Below are positions 5,041 to 20,365 of a DNA stretch of 20,365 nucleotides, one piece after another; position 1 is the stretch's first letter; each line of letters starts with the position of its first letter. The stretch is from a virus. The stretch spans positions 1 through 20,365 of IMG/VR virus record IMGVR_UViG_3300008450_000609; one strand, 5' to 3'. Below the pieces are notes generated by a model. It did not search any database, was not told the DNA's origin, and saw only the letters and a program-made list of their open reading frames with translations. Both the position numbers and the translations under genes were made by a program.

Positions 5041-6732
5041 ATGGGAAGTTTAAGTAACTTATATATTTCACAAAGTTTTAAATCCTTAATACATTTAGGT
5101 AATGATAATTCAGCATCAGCTACACAAGTAGAATTGCAAGATGGTGTTGGAGCTGGATTAGGCATCTATGTGAATAATGCAGGAGATGTAACTATTGATG
5201 GCGCGTTAATCGTTAGTGGTACATTTGATATTGAAGGAAAGATTGTTGTAAATGATGATGTTAGAATCAATGGTAATTTAGAAGTTAGCGGTTCGACTAA
5301 ATTTACAGGCAGTTTAGTAGTAAGTAATCAACTTACTGCATCTTCTGCTTTTATTCAAAATGATTTGAATGTTGGTGGTACTCTATTCGCAAGTAAAGTT
5401 GTAACACTAATAGAATCATCATCCATTATTTTCTCATCAGGAAGCAATATATTAGGAGATGATATTTCAGATACACAAACCCTCATCGGTTCTGTTATCG
5501 TTTCAGGTAGTGGAGCTTTGACGGGTTCTATGGGTATATCTGGTGACTTGGAAGTAAAGGGTAATATATCTTCTTCTACCGTTAGTGGAATAGGTAATGT
5601 AACTTTGTATTCTCAATCAGTAGATGCAAGACTAGATATAGTAGAAGCTACTGCATCCCTATTTGTTCCATTCTCTCAATCTGTAGATGCACGTTTGGAT
5701 GTTGTTGAAGCAACTGCTAGTTTGTATATACCATTCAGTACTTCTGTAGATAGTAGATTAGACTTTTTAGAAGGACCTTTTAGTACATCAGTAGATGCCC
5801 GTTTAGATGTTGTGGAGGCAACTGCTTCATTATATGTTCCATTCAGTACTTCTGTAGATTCTCGTTTAGATTTTCTCGAAGGACCGTTTAGTACATCTGT
5901 TGATGCTAGATTAGATATAGTAGAAGCAACCGCTTCTTTATATGTTCCTTTCAGTACATCAGTTGATGCACGTTTAGATGCATTGGAAGCATTTACTGGC
6001 TCTCAAGGTTTAGTAAGTACGGCATCATTTAATGCGTATACTGCATCTGTTAATTCTGCTTTATCATCAATATATCAAACTACTGCAAGTTTAAATACAT
6101 TTACTCAATCTACGAATAGTAGATTAAATTCATTAGAAGCAGCAACTTCATCTTATGCTAATTCTGCATCAGTAGCAGCTGATTTTGTAACAACAAATAA
6201 TAATATAACTTCTTTATCTCAATCAGTTTCATCTTCAAATGCATTAACTAATAATAGAATAAATGTATTATCATCTTTTACAGGAAGTTATGCAACCACT
6301 GGTAGTAATTCATTTAATGGCAACCAAACAATAACAGGAAGTTTAATACTTTCATCATCTGCTGCAATTGAATTGGAAGTTATTGGTAATTCTGTATTCA
6401 CAGGAAGTGTAAGAGGACGAGTTTCAAATTTAAGTATATCATCAAATACTGCAAGTATGGATTTAAGTTTAGGTAACTTTTTTACAATAACATTAAATAC
6501 ATCACAAGCTTGTAGAATTGAACCTACTAATATACAACCAGGACAAACTACAACATTGAGGGTAACGCAAGCTAGTGGTGGAGGAGGAACAGTTCAGTTT
6601 CCAACAAATGTAGATTTCCCAACAGGATTTCAATATAGTGCTACACCTGCTGCAAATGCAACTGATATATTAACATTCTTATCATTTGATACCGCAAGTT
6701 TATATTATAGTAGAGCAAATCAATTTATTTAA
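5041..6732 (+). CDS. Repeat-rich tail fibre protein
   Basis: A 563-residue Ser/Thr-rich fibre-like protein. Residues ~40-110 are short strand repeats of the type DVTIDGALIVSG and DVRINGNLEVSG, typical of a trimeric beta-prism shaft. Residues ~120-150 contain ESSSIIFSSGSNILGDDISDT, like a motif in marine phage fibres. Residues 191-317 hold seven SVD(A/S)RLD repeats likely to form a coiled coil, followed by looser TASVNS/SRLNSLE repeats. The C-terminal ~110 residues (NFFTITL, TNIQPGQTTTLRV, GGGTVQF, DILTFLSFDTASLYY) look like a globular knob that could bind the host surface. It lies between tail-neck genes and a second fibre-like gene. Confidence 0.75.
   Translation: MGSLSNLYISQSFKSLIHLGNDNSASATQVELQDGVGAGLGIYVNNAGDVTIDGALIVSGTFDIEGKIVVNDDVRINGNLEVSGSTKFTGSLVVSNQLTASSAFIQNDLNVGGTLFASKVVTLIESSSIIFSSGSNILGDDISDTQTLIGSVIVSGSGALTGSMGISGDLEVKGNISSSTVSGIGNVTLYSQSVDARLDIVEATASLFVPFSQSVDARLDVVEATASLYIPFSTSVDSRLDFLEGPFSTSVDARLDVVEATASLYVPFSTSVDSRLDFLEGPFSTSVDARLDIVEATASLYVPFSTSVDARLDALEAFTGSQGLVSTASFNAYTASVNSALSSIYQTTASLNTFTQSTNSRLNSLEAATSSYANSASVAADFVTTNNNITSLSQSVSSSNALTNNRINVLSSFTGSYATTGSNSFNGNQTITGSLILSSSAAIELEVIGNSVFTGSVRGRVSNLSISSNTASMDLSLGNFFTITLNTSQACRIEPTNIQPGQTTTLRVTQASGGGGTVQFPTNVDFPTGFQYSATPAANATDILTFLSFDTASLYYSRANQFI
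5611..5990 (+). repeat. Seven SVDxRLD protein repeats inside the fibre gene
   Basis: Seven units begin S(Q/T)SVD(A/S)RLD. Four are the 21-residue form (ending VEATASL-F/Y-x-PF), two are a 15-residue form (ending FLEGPF), and the last runs into LEAFTGSQG. Long and short forms alternate in the middle. The amino acids are nearly identical but the codons differ widely, so the repeats are conserved at protein level. Hydrophobic spacing fits a trimeric coiled-coil shaft. Confidence 0.85.
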
Positions 6733-9013: not shown

Positions 9014-9469
9014 ATGAAAAAGTGGTGTGTATACGAATTAGTAAATTTAATGGGAACGGTTGAATGGGTAGGAGAAACTACTAGATACAAAAGACGAATG
9101 TACGAACATACTAAAATAAAACCAAAGGATACACAGAGAAATGGTTATTTTTATGGAAGACAAGATATAATGATGAATATAGTACACGAGTTTGATAATA
9201 GAAAAGATGCTCTAGAATTAGAAAGTGAATTGAAAACATTTTATGGATTACCATTGAGTGAGAAAGAAGGTAGGTTAAAAGGAGCTTTAAAAGGTGGAAA
9301 ATCTGCAGTTGAATCAGGACAATTAAAGTCAGTATGTAGTATGGGAGGAAAAATTGGTGGAAAGATAGCAGGTAAGTTACAATCACAAAAGGAATACATT
9401 TGTCCAAATTGCAATAGAAAAGGAAGAGGAAATAGATTCGTATCACATATTAAAAATTGTAAAATATAA
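9014..9469 (+). CDS. GIY-YIG-type homing endonuclease (free-standing)
   Basis: A 151-residue protein. Residues 5-35 fit the GIY-YIG nuclease core: CVYEL (GIY-like strand, residues 5-9), VEWVG (YIG-like strand, 16-20), then ETTRYKRRMYEH with Arg24/Arg28 and His32; Glu at about residue 70 in ALELESELK is a candidate metal-binding residue. A Lys/Gly-rich linker (GGKIGGKIAGK, ~111-121) resembles NUMOD-type DNA-binding repeats, and residues 130-149 form CPNC-x11-H-x3-C, a zinc finger. Such enzymes cut intronless or gene-free alleles to spread their own gene. It sits between two tail genes with its own promoter-like site and is likely a mobile insertion. Confidence 0.75.
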   Translation: MKKWCVYELVNLMGTVEWVGETTRYKRRMYEHTKIKPKDTQRNGYFYGRQDIMMNIVHEFDNRKDALELESELKTFYGLPLSEKEGRLKGALKGGKSAVESGQLKSVCSMGGKIGGKIAGKLQSQKEYICPNCNRKGRGNRFVSHIKNCKI

Positions 9470-18802: not shown

Positions 18803-18914
18803 CAATTAGAAAAAACATATAGACTCGTACTCTATATTTAAGATAACGGAAGAGATTCCAACTTAAAACCCAAAGAGACAGAATGTACGAGATTCAGTTT
18901 CAATGGGTTTTTTT
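18803..18914 (+). ncRNA. Structured leader RNA with predicted loop-loop kissing interaction
   Basis: Three hairpins follow each other without linkers. H1: 18817-18823 pairs with 18831-18837, seven perfect pairs, loop CTCGTAC (18824-18830). H2: 18838-18842 with 18862-18866, an internal loop, then GGAA (18848-18851) with TTCC (18856-18859) around a GAGA (GNRA) tetraloop. H3: outer stem 18867-18872 with 18904-18909 (extendable by two pairs if H2 opens), a symmetric AA/AA internal loop, inner stem 18875-18884 with 18892-18901 (one G-U, one A-A mismatch), loop GTACGAG (18885-18891), then a T run to 18914. The H1 and H3 loops are perfect reverse complements over all seven bases. The RNA ends 8 nt before the replication gene start, so it could act in cis as an attenuator or be released as a ~110-nt RNA. 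No known family recognised. Confidence 0.65.
18865..18914 (+). terminator. Terminator/attenuator hairpin before the replication gene
   Basis: This is H3 of the leader RNA: up to eight outer pairs AAAACCCA (18865-18872) with TGGGTTTT (18904-18911), an inner 10-position stem, and seven T from 18908 to 18914. It ends 8 nt before the ATG at 18922, so expression of the downstream gene would need read-through or a separate mechanism. Confidence 0.7.
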
Positions 18915-18921
18915 ATTTAAT

Positions 18922-19713
18922 ATGAAAAAACAATATAAGTTTTTAGAAAAAGAAAATTGGTTCAAACATGATTTCCGTAGTAGGGAAGATAAGAAACTAA
19001 TTAGATTAAAGATGAAATGGAAATCATCAGCACCTATTGGTGTATTCTGGCAATTATGTGAAATGATTTACGAAAGTGCTGGATTATTAGAATATGATAT
19101 AGATGTAATATCATACAATTGTGGTGATGATGTTGAAATAGTTAAAGATGTAATTGATATGTGTTTTTTAATTACTGATGATAACTTTCTTACACACGAA
19201 ACTATTGTAGAACAATTGGATTTTAGGCAAGAATCTTATGAACAAACAAGTAAAAGAAATACTGAAAATGTTAAAAAGAGATGGGAGAAAGATAAACAAT
19301 CTAATACGAATGGTATACCACCCGTATACGAACCGAATACGAAATTATACCAACCTATACCAGAGAAGAGAGTAAAGAGTAGAGAGTTTAGAGTAGAGAG
19401 TAAAGAGTTTACAGATAAGAATAAACTACTTGCTGTATATAGTTCTGAACCTTTACCTGAAATTGAAAATACTGATATTGATTGTATGGGTATTCAATCA
19501 GATTATGAAATAACTAGACCTATGTTAGAAAGAGTTATTGATAAGTTTATTGCAGTAAATAATAGATTTAAGTTTCAATCAGTAATGAGAGAAGTAGATG
19601 AAGACTATGGTGGATTTGATAATTTAATAGAAATGTATTTACCTAATGATACATCAGCACAAAATAATTTTAAGAGTAAATTACAACAATATAAAAACGG
19701 AATATATGCTTAA
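18922..19713 (+). CDS. Replication initiator/organizer, Lin1244/Lin1753-like (DUF4373-type) N-terminus
   Basis: Start taken at 18922, after the terminator hairpin, giving 263 residues; an in-frame ATG at 18883 lies inside that hairpin. Residues ~4-105 match the Lin1244/Lin1753-like domain: ENWFKHDFRSREDKKLIRLK, then GVFWQLCEMIYESAG, and the closing TSKRNTENVKKRW, like the SxKRxxxxxxRW ending of this family. Such proteins are related to DnaD-like replication factors and serve as phage replication organizers, binding the origin and recruiting host helicase loading. The middle (~128-163) is a low-complexity linker encoded by the DNA repeats described separately; the C-terminal ~70 residues (ITRPMLERVIDKFIAVNN) are helical. 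It overlaps the next gene by 8 bp. Confidence 0.7.
   Translation: MKKQYKFLEKENWFKHDFRSREDKKLIRLKMKWKSSAPIGVFWQLCEMIYESAGLLEYDIDVISYNCGDDVEIVKDVIDMCFLITDDNFLTHETIVEQLDFRQESYEQTSKRNTENVKKRWEKDKQSNTNGIPPVYEPNTKLYQPIPEKRVKSREFRVESKEFTDKNKLLAVYSSEPLPEIENTDIDCMGIQSDYEITRPMLERVIDKFIAVNNRFKFQSVMREVDEDYGGFDNLIEMYLPNDTSAQNNFKSKLQQYKNGIYA
19304..19363 (+). repeat. Six helically phased ATAC(G/C)A iterons (candidate origin, part 1)
   Basis: ATACGAA, ATACCAC, ATACGAA, ATACGAA, ATACCAA and ATACCAG start at 19304, 19315, 19326, 19337, 19347 and 19357. Spacing is 11, 11, 11, 10, 10 bp, about one turn of DNA, so all copies face the same side of the helix. The period is not a multiple of three and the encoded peptide does not repeat, so the signal is in the DNA. 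Position inside an initiator gene resembles the phage lambda origin inside gene O. Confidence 0.75.
19369..19410 (+). repeat. Six tandem AGAGTNN heptamers (candidate origin, part 2)
   Basis: AGAGTAA, AGAGTAG, AGAGTTT, AGAGTAG, AGAGTAA, AGAGTTT start every 7 bp from 19369; a degenerate unit AGAGAAG precedes them at 19362. One strand is purine-rich. The 7-bp period is out of phase with codons, so the encoded KRVKSREFRVESKEF is a by-product. The array follows the iterons directly and could be a second protein-binding or unwinding element. Confidence 0.8.
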
Positions 19714-20140: not shown

Positions 20141-20365
20141 ATGACACAAACTAAACACTGCTACGCATGTAGCATTACCAAACCTACCACAGACTTCTCT
20201 AAATGTAAAAAGAGCAAGGATTCCCTTCAACCAAAATGTAAGGAATGTAACAAAGTGGATAATCACAAATTCAGAACCACACTAAATCCTAAACACCATA
20301 CTCAATGGCAAAAAGATAATGCTAAAAGAGTATGTGAAATTGTCAGAAAGCATAGAGCTGCTGAT
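20141..20365 (+). CDS. Zinc-ribbon protein, HNH or endonuclease VII-like N-terminus (partial)
   Basis: The ATG at 20141 opens 75 codons that run off the window. Residues 7-36 are CYAC, then CPKCKEC-like (CxxC-x22-CxxC, Cys7, Cys10, Cys33, Cys36) in the arrangement seen at the N-terminus of phage HNH and endonuclease VII-type nucleases. The nuclease core would lie downstream, so the enzyme call is unproven. Codons are more C-rich (TAC, ACC, TTC) than in the neighbouring genes, a possible sign of separate origin. Start region AACAATGAC is the complement of the upstream RNA loop. Confidence 0.6.
   Translation, partial: MTQTKHCYACSITKPTTDFSKCKKSKDSLQPKCKECNKVDNHKFRTTLNPKHHTQWQKDNAKRVCEIVRKHRAAD

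Follow-up and report, generated by a model that had tools for sequence, protein, structure and literature searches.

Why does the replication initiator gene of a virus carry two adjacent arrays of short DNA repeats inside its own coding sequence? The gene is the last complete larger gene of the window, i.e. the whole stretch of 20,365 bases that was analysed and that represents an IMG/VR virus record. The original prediction regarded the arrays as a candidate phage origin, composed of iterons bound by the initiator and a second element for binding or unwinding. Judging from sequence comparisons, we consider it probable that the arrays form an in-gene replication origin, in which the iterons would be read at least partly by the end of a helix of the N-terminal domain and the heptamers would open. 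What is new in the result is that the iteron appears to be largely predictable from a short protein motif, which together with the iterons would form one exchangeable cassette. No report of such a correspondence between protein motif and iteron was found in the freely accessible literature.

Two repeat arrays within an initiator gene

The first array consists of ATAC(G/C)A words at spacings of 11, 11, 11, 10 and 10 bp, and the second of AGAGTNN heptamers, with AGAGT starting at 19369, 19376, 19383, 19390, 19397 and 19404, i.e. in steps of 7 bp (Table 1). In the rest of the window, both words occur only scattered. The predicted six members of each array were confirmed at their positions, and both arrays go beyond chance: when the gene was shuffled 500 times by codon blocks, the longest chain of 6-mers at 10/11-bp steps, with one 2-fold degenerate base permitted, had 5 members vs. 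6 observed, and chains of 5-mers at 7 bp never exceeded 3 vs. 6 observed. TRF likewise calls the heptamer array, as 7/14/21-bp repeats, and its best 42 bases have a purine fraction of 0.81. The original prediction also stated that the encoded peptide does not repeat. This holds for the first array but not for the heptamers, where RVKSREF/RVESKEF repeats because three heptamers correspond to seven codons.

Table 1. Positions of the initiator gene, its parts and the two DNA arrays in the window.
Feature	Position	Strand	Basis
Lin1244_N-type replication initiator gene, 263 aa	18922..19713	+	ORF; PF14297 match of 25.3 bits (cut-off 25), E 2.7e-5
Lin1244_N domain (winged helix, as predicted), residues 13-82	18958..19167	+	Pfam, AlphaFold2, winged-helix matches
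Long C-terminal helix of the N-domain, residues 93-127	19198..19302	+	AlphaFold2-predicted helix H93-127
Putative specificity cassette, protein motif and iterons	19222..19361	+	Replaced as block in L005 and L002; window/L005 identity 0.36-0.53
Proposed iteron-recognition motif RNTENVKKRWEK, residues 112-123; V117 = R-3 of RW	19255..19290	+	R120/W121 invariance; R-3 association
First array, six ATAC(G/C)A iterons at 19304, 19315, 19326, 19337, 19347, 19357	19304..19362	+	0/500 shuffles reach six
Second array (proposed unwinding element), six AGAGTNN heptamers rich in purines on the coding strand	19369..19410	+	AGAGT positions; TRF; purine fraction

The assignment of the gene to the Lin1244-type initiators was borne out, with a marginal PF14297 (Lin1244_N) score of 25.3 bits at a cut-off of 25; RepA_N (PF06970) is absent from the Pfam matches of the protein at E ≤ 0.1. 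An AlphaFold2 model built with 30 aligned sequences has pLDDT values above 90 across approximately residues 21-120 and below 50 at residues 141-164 in the linker. It predicts a winged-helix N-domain (H24-33, H37-51, H60-67, H71-81, wing, H93-127). The top VIA-align matches are winged helices as well (Z 5.9, rmsd 2.0, 58 residues), which represents a generic likeness, and Foldseek gave no match at E ≤ 0.001 for either of two models.

Relatives, block replacement and distribution of the layout

Relatives of the window protein are encoded at five viral loci, three of which carry an identical protein; a profile search of genome contigs with alignment A2 found no relative. The protein of locus L005 is 76% identical to that of the window. 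L005 has kept the heptamers, while its first array consists of TCAAC at 11, 11, 10, 11 and 10 bp instead of ATAC(G/C)A, and the protein stretch just before its iterons also differs from the window's. The DNA identity between the two genes amounts to 0.82-1.00 over gene nucleotides 1-300, 0.36-0.53 over nucleotides 301-440, 0.96 in the heptamers and 0.83-0.98 beyond. Because the identity collapses in this interval and stays high on either side, the alignment indicates that approximately 140 bp, encompassing the end of the N-domain and the iterons, are replaced as one block in L005. In L002, the first array is different again. The farther relatives L060, L061 and L063 combine a window-type C-terminal domain with a DUF6291 N-domain. 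In these three and in L073-L090, very different N-terminal domains are joined to shared C-terminal domains, either that of the window protein or one of the YYWTAKDAG type, which suggests that the DNA-binding halves are freely exchanged.

The original prediction proposed to align the linkers of homologous initiators, where repeats of altered sequence and the same spacing were indeed found. For this comparison, 56 non-redundant initiator genes were scored with a five-unit consensus, and each score was tested against codon-block shuffles (p ≤ 0.02). Exact 5-mer chains were rejected as a general iteron detector, since they are too strict and miss the window itself; the consensus score was used instead. 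The set includes L019, although this locus was found by its heptamer pattern, and leaves out L161, L156 and L159. The loci L091-L156 were obtained partly via a linker peptide pattern and are therefore not fully independent of the linker. Steps of 10/11 bp were significant in 30 of the 56 genes, whereas 8/9 and 13/14 steps reached significance in 2 genes each. However, approximately 14 of the 30 positives are, as judged by reading, A-rich short-period arrays seen at double period, so that 16 clear iteron arrays remain, including L019. The iteron units vary among ATACSA, TCAACA, GCCACC, ATGCAA, TCCGAA, GTTCAA and others. Periodic repeats are not seen in every homologue: approximately half of them lack a clear iteron, with 26 of the 56 genes showing no {10,11} signal at the same threshold, which counts against the origin reading.

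The second array was examined in a set of 96 initiators whose selection took no account of iterons. This set retains 65 of 69 HMM-drawn genome loci (L161, L513, L523 and L545 were dropped owing to short ORFs or masked bases); its older part excludes L156, L159 and L019, its later-drawn part comprises 41 of 44 loci, and some tail matches in the HMM draw, e.g. L528 and L531, were judged spurious by position. At p ≤ 0.01, tandem arrays with a period of 5 bp were found in 36, of 6 bp in 18 and of 7 bp in 7 initiators, vs. 2 with a period of 4 bp and 4 with a period of 8 bp. Altogether 58 of the 96 initiators carry a 5-7 bp array, mostly purine-rich with a mean purine fraction of 0.80, and hence the window heptamers represent one variant of a second element that is common. 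The two-part layout, which had been considered unfamiliar for this family, is in fact widespread among these initiators.

The word AGAGTNN was rejected as an origin signature, as only 2 of 50 viral loci with five such units were judged to lie in initiator-like genes, namely L019 and L042 (the contig of L005). L019 has seven GTCAC words at 11, 11, 10, 11, 10 and 11 bp followed by five AGAGT units, and its protein has no Pfam match. Tandem AGAGTNN arrays occur in many viral contigs (L007-L056), mostly outside initiator genes.

Association between protein motif and iteron

The joint swap of the iterons and the preceding protein stretch in L005 led to a search for a correspondence between the two. 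The idea itself arose from reading linkers side by side and was tested with DNA patterns that carry no motif information. These patterns were scanned over viral contigs, and the ORFs were clustered at 70% identity, whereby the clusters are not fully independent lineages. Three GTTCAAC words at 10/11 bp were found at no fewer than 120 loci, of which 113 are listed with an ORF on the same strand that spans at least 100 aa; among the matches listed, 100 of these 113 ORFs have the strict motif at most 45 aa upstream of the array. Grouping the 103 ORFs of at least 140 aa gave 48 clusters, 46 of which contain GxxS(A/G)xxR, again among the matches listed. Four ATGCRA words were found at 79 loci (52 ORFs, 31 clusters), and A..RW is present in 25 of the 31 clusters; one of the others has Ser at this position, one Asn and one Ser on opposite-strand arrays, and three have none. 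The window's own word, ATACSA in four copies, occurs at 31 loci in addition to the window (8 ORFs, 7 clusters), with (I/V)..RW in 6 of the 7 clusters and no RW in the remaining one. R120 and W121 are invariant in the six proteins with ATACSA iterons. The contrast of Ala vs. Ile/Val at R-3 between ATGCRA and ATACSA clusters is significant (Fisher 7.7e-6), when 5 of the 31 ATGCRA and 1 of the 7 ATACSA clusters are omitted (L408 and L390 with opposite-strand arrays; L351, L367 and L371 without RW); scoring L390 and L408 as non-Ala changes the value to approximately 6e-5.

For a further word, ATCGCC, Asn at R-3 (N..RW) was predicted before the scan, which gave 86 loci, 25 ORFs and 23 clusters and was noisy, mostly with chance matches in GC-rich genes. 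Asn was found at R-3 in loci L418, L422 and L449, and also in L421, where the longest-ORF rule had chosen a wrong-strand ORF and GNHTRW was read from the same-strand ORF. Four other RW-bearing clusters (L444, L446, L478, L483) have different residues at R-3 and do not look initiator-like, with some doubt about L483, which has Leu in a GC-rich ORF. ATCGCC thus appears to fit the predicted N..RW in a few cases. The proposed code classes are GxxSAxxR with GTTCAAC, and x..RW with Ala, Ile/Val or Asn at R-3 for ATGCRA, ATACSA and ATCGCC, respectively. Two more observations concern possible class members. L390 is an initiator-like gene with a GNEVRW motif, and its ATGCRA match lies on the strand opposite to the gene; in the reading direction of the gene, its iterons may belong to an ATCGC class. 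By eye, the DUF6291-type loci L060 and L081 have GGAPKGNxNA with ACAACC repeats and L061 and L063 have GGRPK with AACC, which are possible further classes of the correspondence.

The coding strand carries the array in all 48 representatives of the GTTCAAC clusters (among the matches listed), in 29 of 31 for ATGCRA and in 6 of 6 for the RW-bearing ATACSA clusters. Reversing the iteron would create stop codons for GTTCAAC and none for ATGCRA or ATACSA; because of the latter, the constant orientation of the arrays relative to the second array seems to carry meaning. One might still regard the repeats as slippage products in a disordered linker that have no DNA function, given the low model confidence of the linker and the predominance of AGAGTNN arrays outside initiator genes. 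We consider this extremely improbable, since the non-triplet period of 10-11 bp is kept while the sequence changes, the interval between TTCAAC words is 11 bp in 113 of 123 cases, and the iteron is predictable from the protein motif; the last point speaks against slippage for the first array, not for the heptamers.

The association was also found in the 96 initiators of the iteron-blind set. At least two GTTCAA words were present in 7 of 8 genes with the GxxSA motif vs. 0 of 88 without it (Fisher 7e-10), and at least three AATGC words in 11 of 16 genes with A..RW vs. 2 of 80 (Fisher 3e-9). It must be mentioned that a part of this set inspired the motif idea, whereas 41 genes were drawn afterwards; in the latter, the corresponding numbers are 2 of 3 vs. 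0 of 38 for GxxSA/GTTCAA and 5 of 7 vs. 1 of 34 for A..RW/AATGC. Ile or Val at R-3 occurs in 5 genes of the blind set, with two or more ATACSA words in the window only. A scan of 793 host genomes for three ATACSA words listed 25 loci from 16 genomes, none of them in an initiator gene, and the pairing of Ile/Val with ATAC therefore rests on six viral clusters. The ATACSA class of the window is the weakest of the correspondence. The view that the first array acts as initiator-specific iterons is supported by the scans and the blind set, in which the iteron word tracks the protein motif.

It is conceivable that motif and iterons travel together merely as neighbours in one recombining block, the motif marking the cassette and the wing or recognition helix doing the reading. 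Both elements are at most approximately 40 codons apart, the L005 swap takes both, and, according to the available text of PMC5703833, RepA_N proteins contact their repeats through the winged HTH. Several observations make this reading unlikely in our opinion. The domain DNA before the swap is 0.82-1.00 identical between the window and L005, yet their iterons differ. Moreover, different Pfam domains with the same motif have the same iterons: GTTCAAC occurs with DUF1376 in 42 and with Lin1244_N in 4 of 48 proteins (among the matches listed), ATGCRA with Lin1244_N in 16, DUF1376 in 7 and DUF6291 in 1 of 31, and ATACSA with Lin1244_N in 4 and DUF6291 in 1 of 6. PF14297 or another Pfam domain as determinant of the iteron sequence was rejected, as iterons cross families. 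Finally, the conserved columns are mainly those of the motif and of residues encoded by the iterons. The 48 GTTCAAC proteins, among the matches listed, have a mean column identity of 13%, and the columns conserved to at least 90% are A97, G98, S101, R105, F106, N107 and T111, i.e. motif plus iteron-coded residues; the 31 ATGCRA proteins conserve M1, A108, R111, W112 and M129. We lean towards the view that phage initiators of several families share one compact code, in which the basic helix end would specify 11-bp-phased iterons; both would sit in a cassette of approximately 140 bp, and an opening element rich in purines would follow downstream.

Proposed mechanism and comparison with known origins

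Eleven base pairs correspond to about one turn of DNA. The six ATAC(G/C)A words, approximately one per turn, would be iterons bound by the initiator itself, with monomers arranged along one face of the DNA beside the purine-rich heptamers. At least part of the iteron reading would fall to RNTENVKKRWEK, the basic end of the long helix with which the N-terminal winged-helix domain terminates. Because the predicted helix 93-127 contains this motif, it can be placed on the basic helix end, which in the model could enter the major groove. In a bZIP-like reading, a single basic helix lies in the major groove and makes contacts at residues 0, 3, 4, 7 and 8, and RNTENVKKRW may resemble the bZIP basic-region signature. 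As a chemical guess that would fit the R-3 contrast, Ile/Val might pack against the methyl group of the thymine in ATAC, where an A:T pair takes the place of G:C. The heptamers would melt as an unwinding element, and this opening would permit the C-terminal domain, or a partner loader, to bring in the helicase. Since the DNA that encodes the motif neighbours the iterons and both would be exchanged jointly in approximately 140 bp, a new origin specificity could be acquired with the remaining gene unchanged.

The purine-rich downstream array is likely the opening element, by analogy to plasmid Rep proteins, which bind one strand of unwinding-element repeats according to the available text of PMC4081077. 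It is rather unlikely in our view that the heptamers instead bind a further protein, be it host DnaA, SSB or the C-domain of the initiator. The nearly unchanged heptamers next to changed iterons in the window and L005 would fit such sites, and the same behaviour of plasmid Rep proteins means that both roles may coincide. Across the 96 genes, however, the period (5, 6 or 7) and the word of the second array vary while the purine richness is constant, as is expected for a compositional element. Regarding helicase loading, a DnaC-like loader adjoins the initiator gene of the relative L067 on its downstream side in a Porphyromonas phage, from which we infer this step for the opening origin proposed here. 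In the window, whose end (20365) comes shortly after the initiator gene, no helicase loader is visible, and inspection of the region downstream of L004 by eye recognised none.

In-gene origins are established for lambda and were proposed or shown for P22, L, SPP1, 80alpha and pSK41 (available text of PMC8022706, PMC5499656, PMC5703833). This bears on the question whether the iterons might bind the initiator for autoregulation or partition, the true origin being elsewhere in the genome. The GC skew of the 20-kb record tracks gene direction and indicates no origin, which would permit this explanation. We regard it as quite improbable, since repeats within the gene are origins or proposed origins in lambda, P22, L, SPP1 and pSK41 (same sources), and the records of 80alpha and Tuc2009 annotate the origin in the corresponding gene. 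The origin reading of the window arrays is, at the level of sequence comparison, well supported.

As in the window, the iterons of phage L gene 18, P22 gene 18 and lambda gene O lie within the initiator coding region. Unlike the window protein, these initiators are O-type proteins, and the repeats of lambda and P22 are approximately 20 bp long; a motif-iteron correspondence is not described for these origins in the available text of PMC8022706. This source reports six imprecise 11-bp repeats in phage L, which we read as GTCCAAC at 11, 11, 44 and 11 bp. The GxxSA motif was not found in phage L gp18, and the 11-bp GTCCAAC repeats of phage L in the absence of the motif count against the motif reading. 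SPP1 gene 38 (oriL) and 80alpha ORF20 resemble the window in that a replisome organizer gene embeds the origin, and ORF20 and ORF21 are essential for initiation in 80alpha (available text of PMC5499656). Different from the window, the repeats of 80alpha gp20 are longer and its second array is of a TAATAAT type.

For RepA_N initiators, binding to iterons at the origin is described (available text of PMC7145576). Those of plasmids such as pSK41 share the winged-helix N-domain with the window protein, the RepA_N origin is situated in the dispensable central linker, and the chimeric pPR9 represents a natural swap of N-domain plus origin (available text of PMC5703833). The pSK41 type has four Rep boxes vs. 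the 11-bp iterons of the window. The pPR9 swap comprises approximately 500 bp including the whole domain, whereas approximately 140 bp are exchanged here and most of the domain is kept. Iteron plasmid Reps (TrfA and others) likewise have iterons beside a repeated unwinding element (available text of PMC4081077), but these proteins contain two winged-helix domains, and their unwinding elements have 13-mers instead of purine heptamers.

Hence, in-gene origins and 11-bp repeats, as in phage L, are already known, and the two-part layout is common. If the code is true, it would assign a specific role to the Lin1244 family and to domains of unknown function such as DUF1376 and DUF6291, and sequence alone would suffice to place many phage origins, including those of uncultured phages, to within approximately 100 bp and to decode them in part. 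A sharp and cheap binding test is offered by the contrast of a single residue at R-3 (Ala/ATGC vs. Ile/Val/ATAC). Furthermore, by swapping the cassette, related phages might alter the specificity of their origins and gain compatibility within a single host.

Several minor observations concern the surroundings of the gene. Rfam and tRNA scans gave no matches. Directly before the initiator gene, an imperfect inverted repeat (18865-18911; 20-nt arms, 80% complementary, 7-nt loop) is followed by a T-rich run and is possibly an attenuator or terminator in the initiator leader. Tandem repeats of 108 bp occur at 5679-5979 within a probable tail or fibre gene. A GIY-YIG nuclease gene (9014-9469) is located among structural genes and an endonuclease VII-like gene (20141-20365) after the initiator; both possibly encode homing enzymes.
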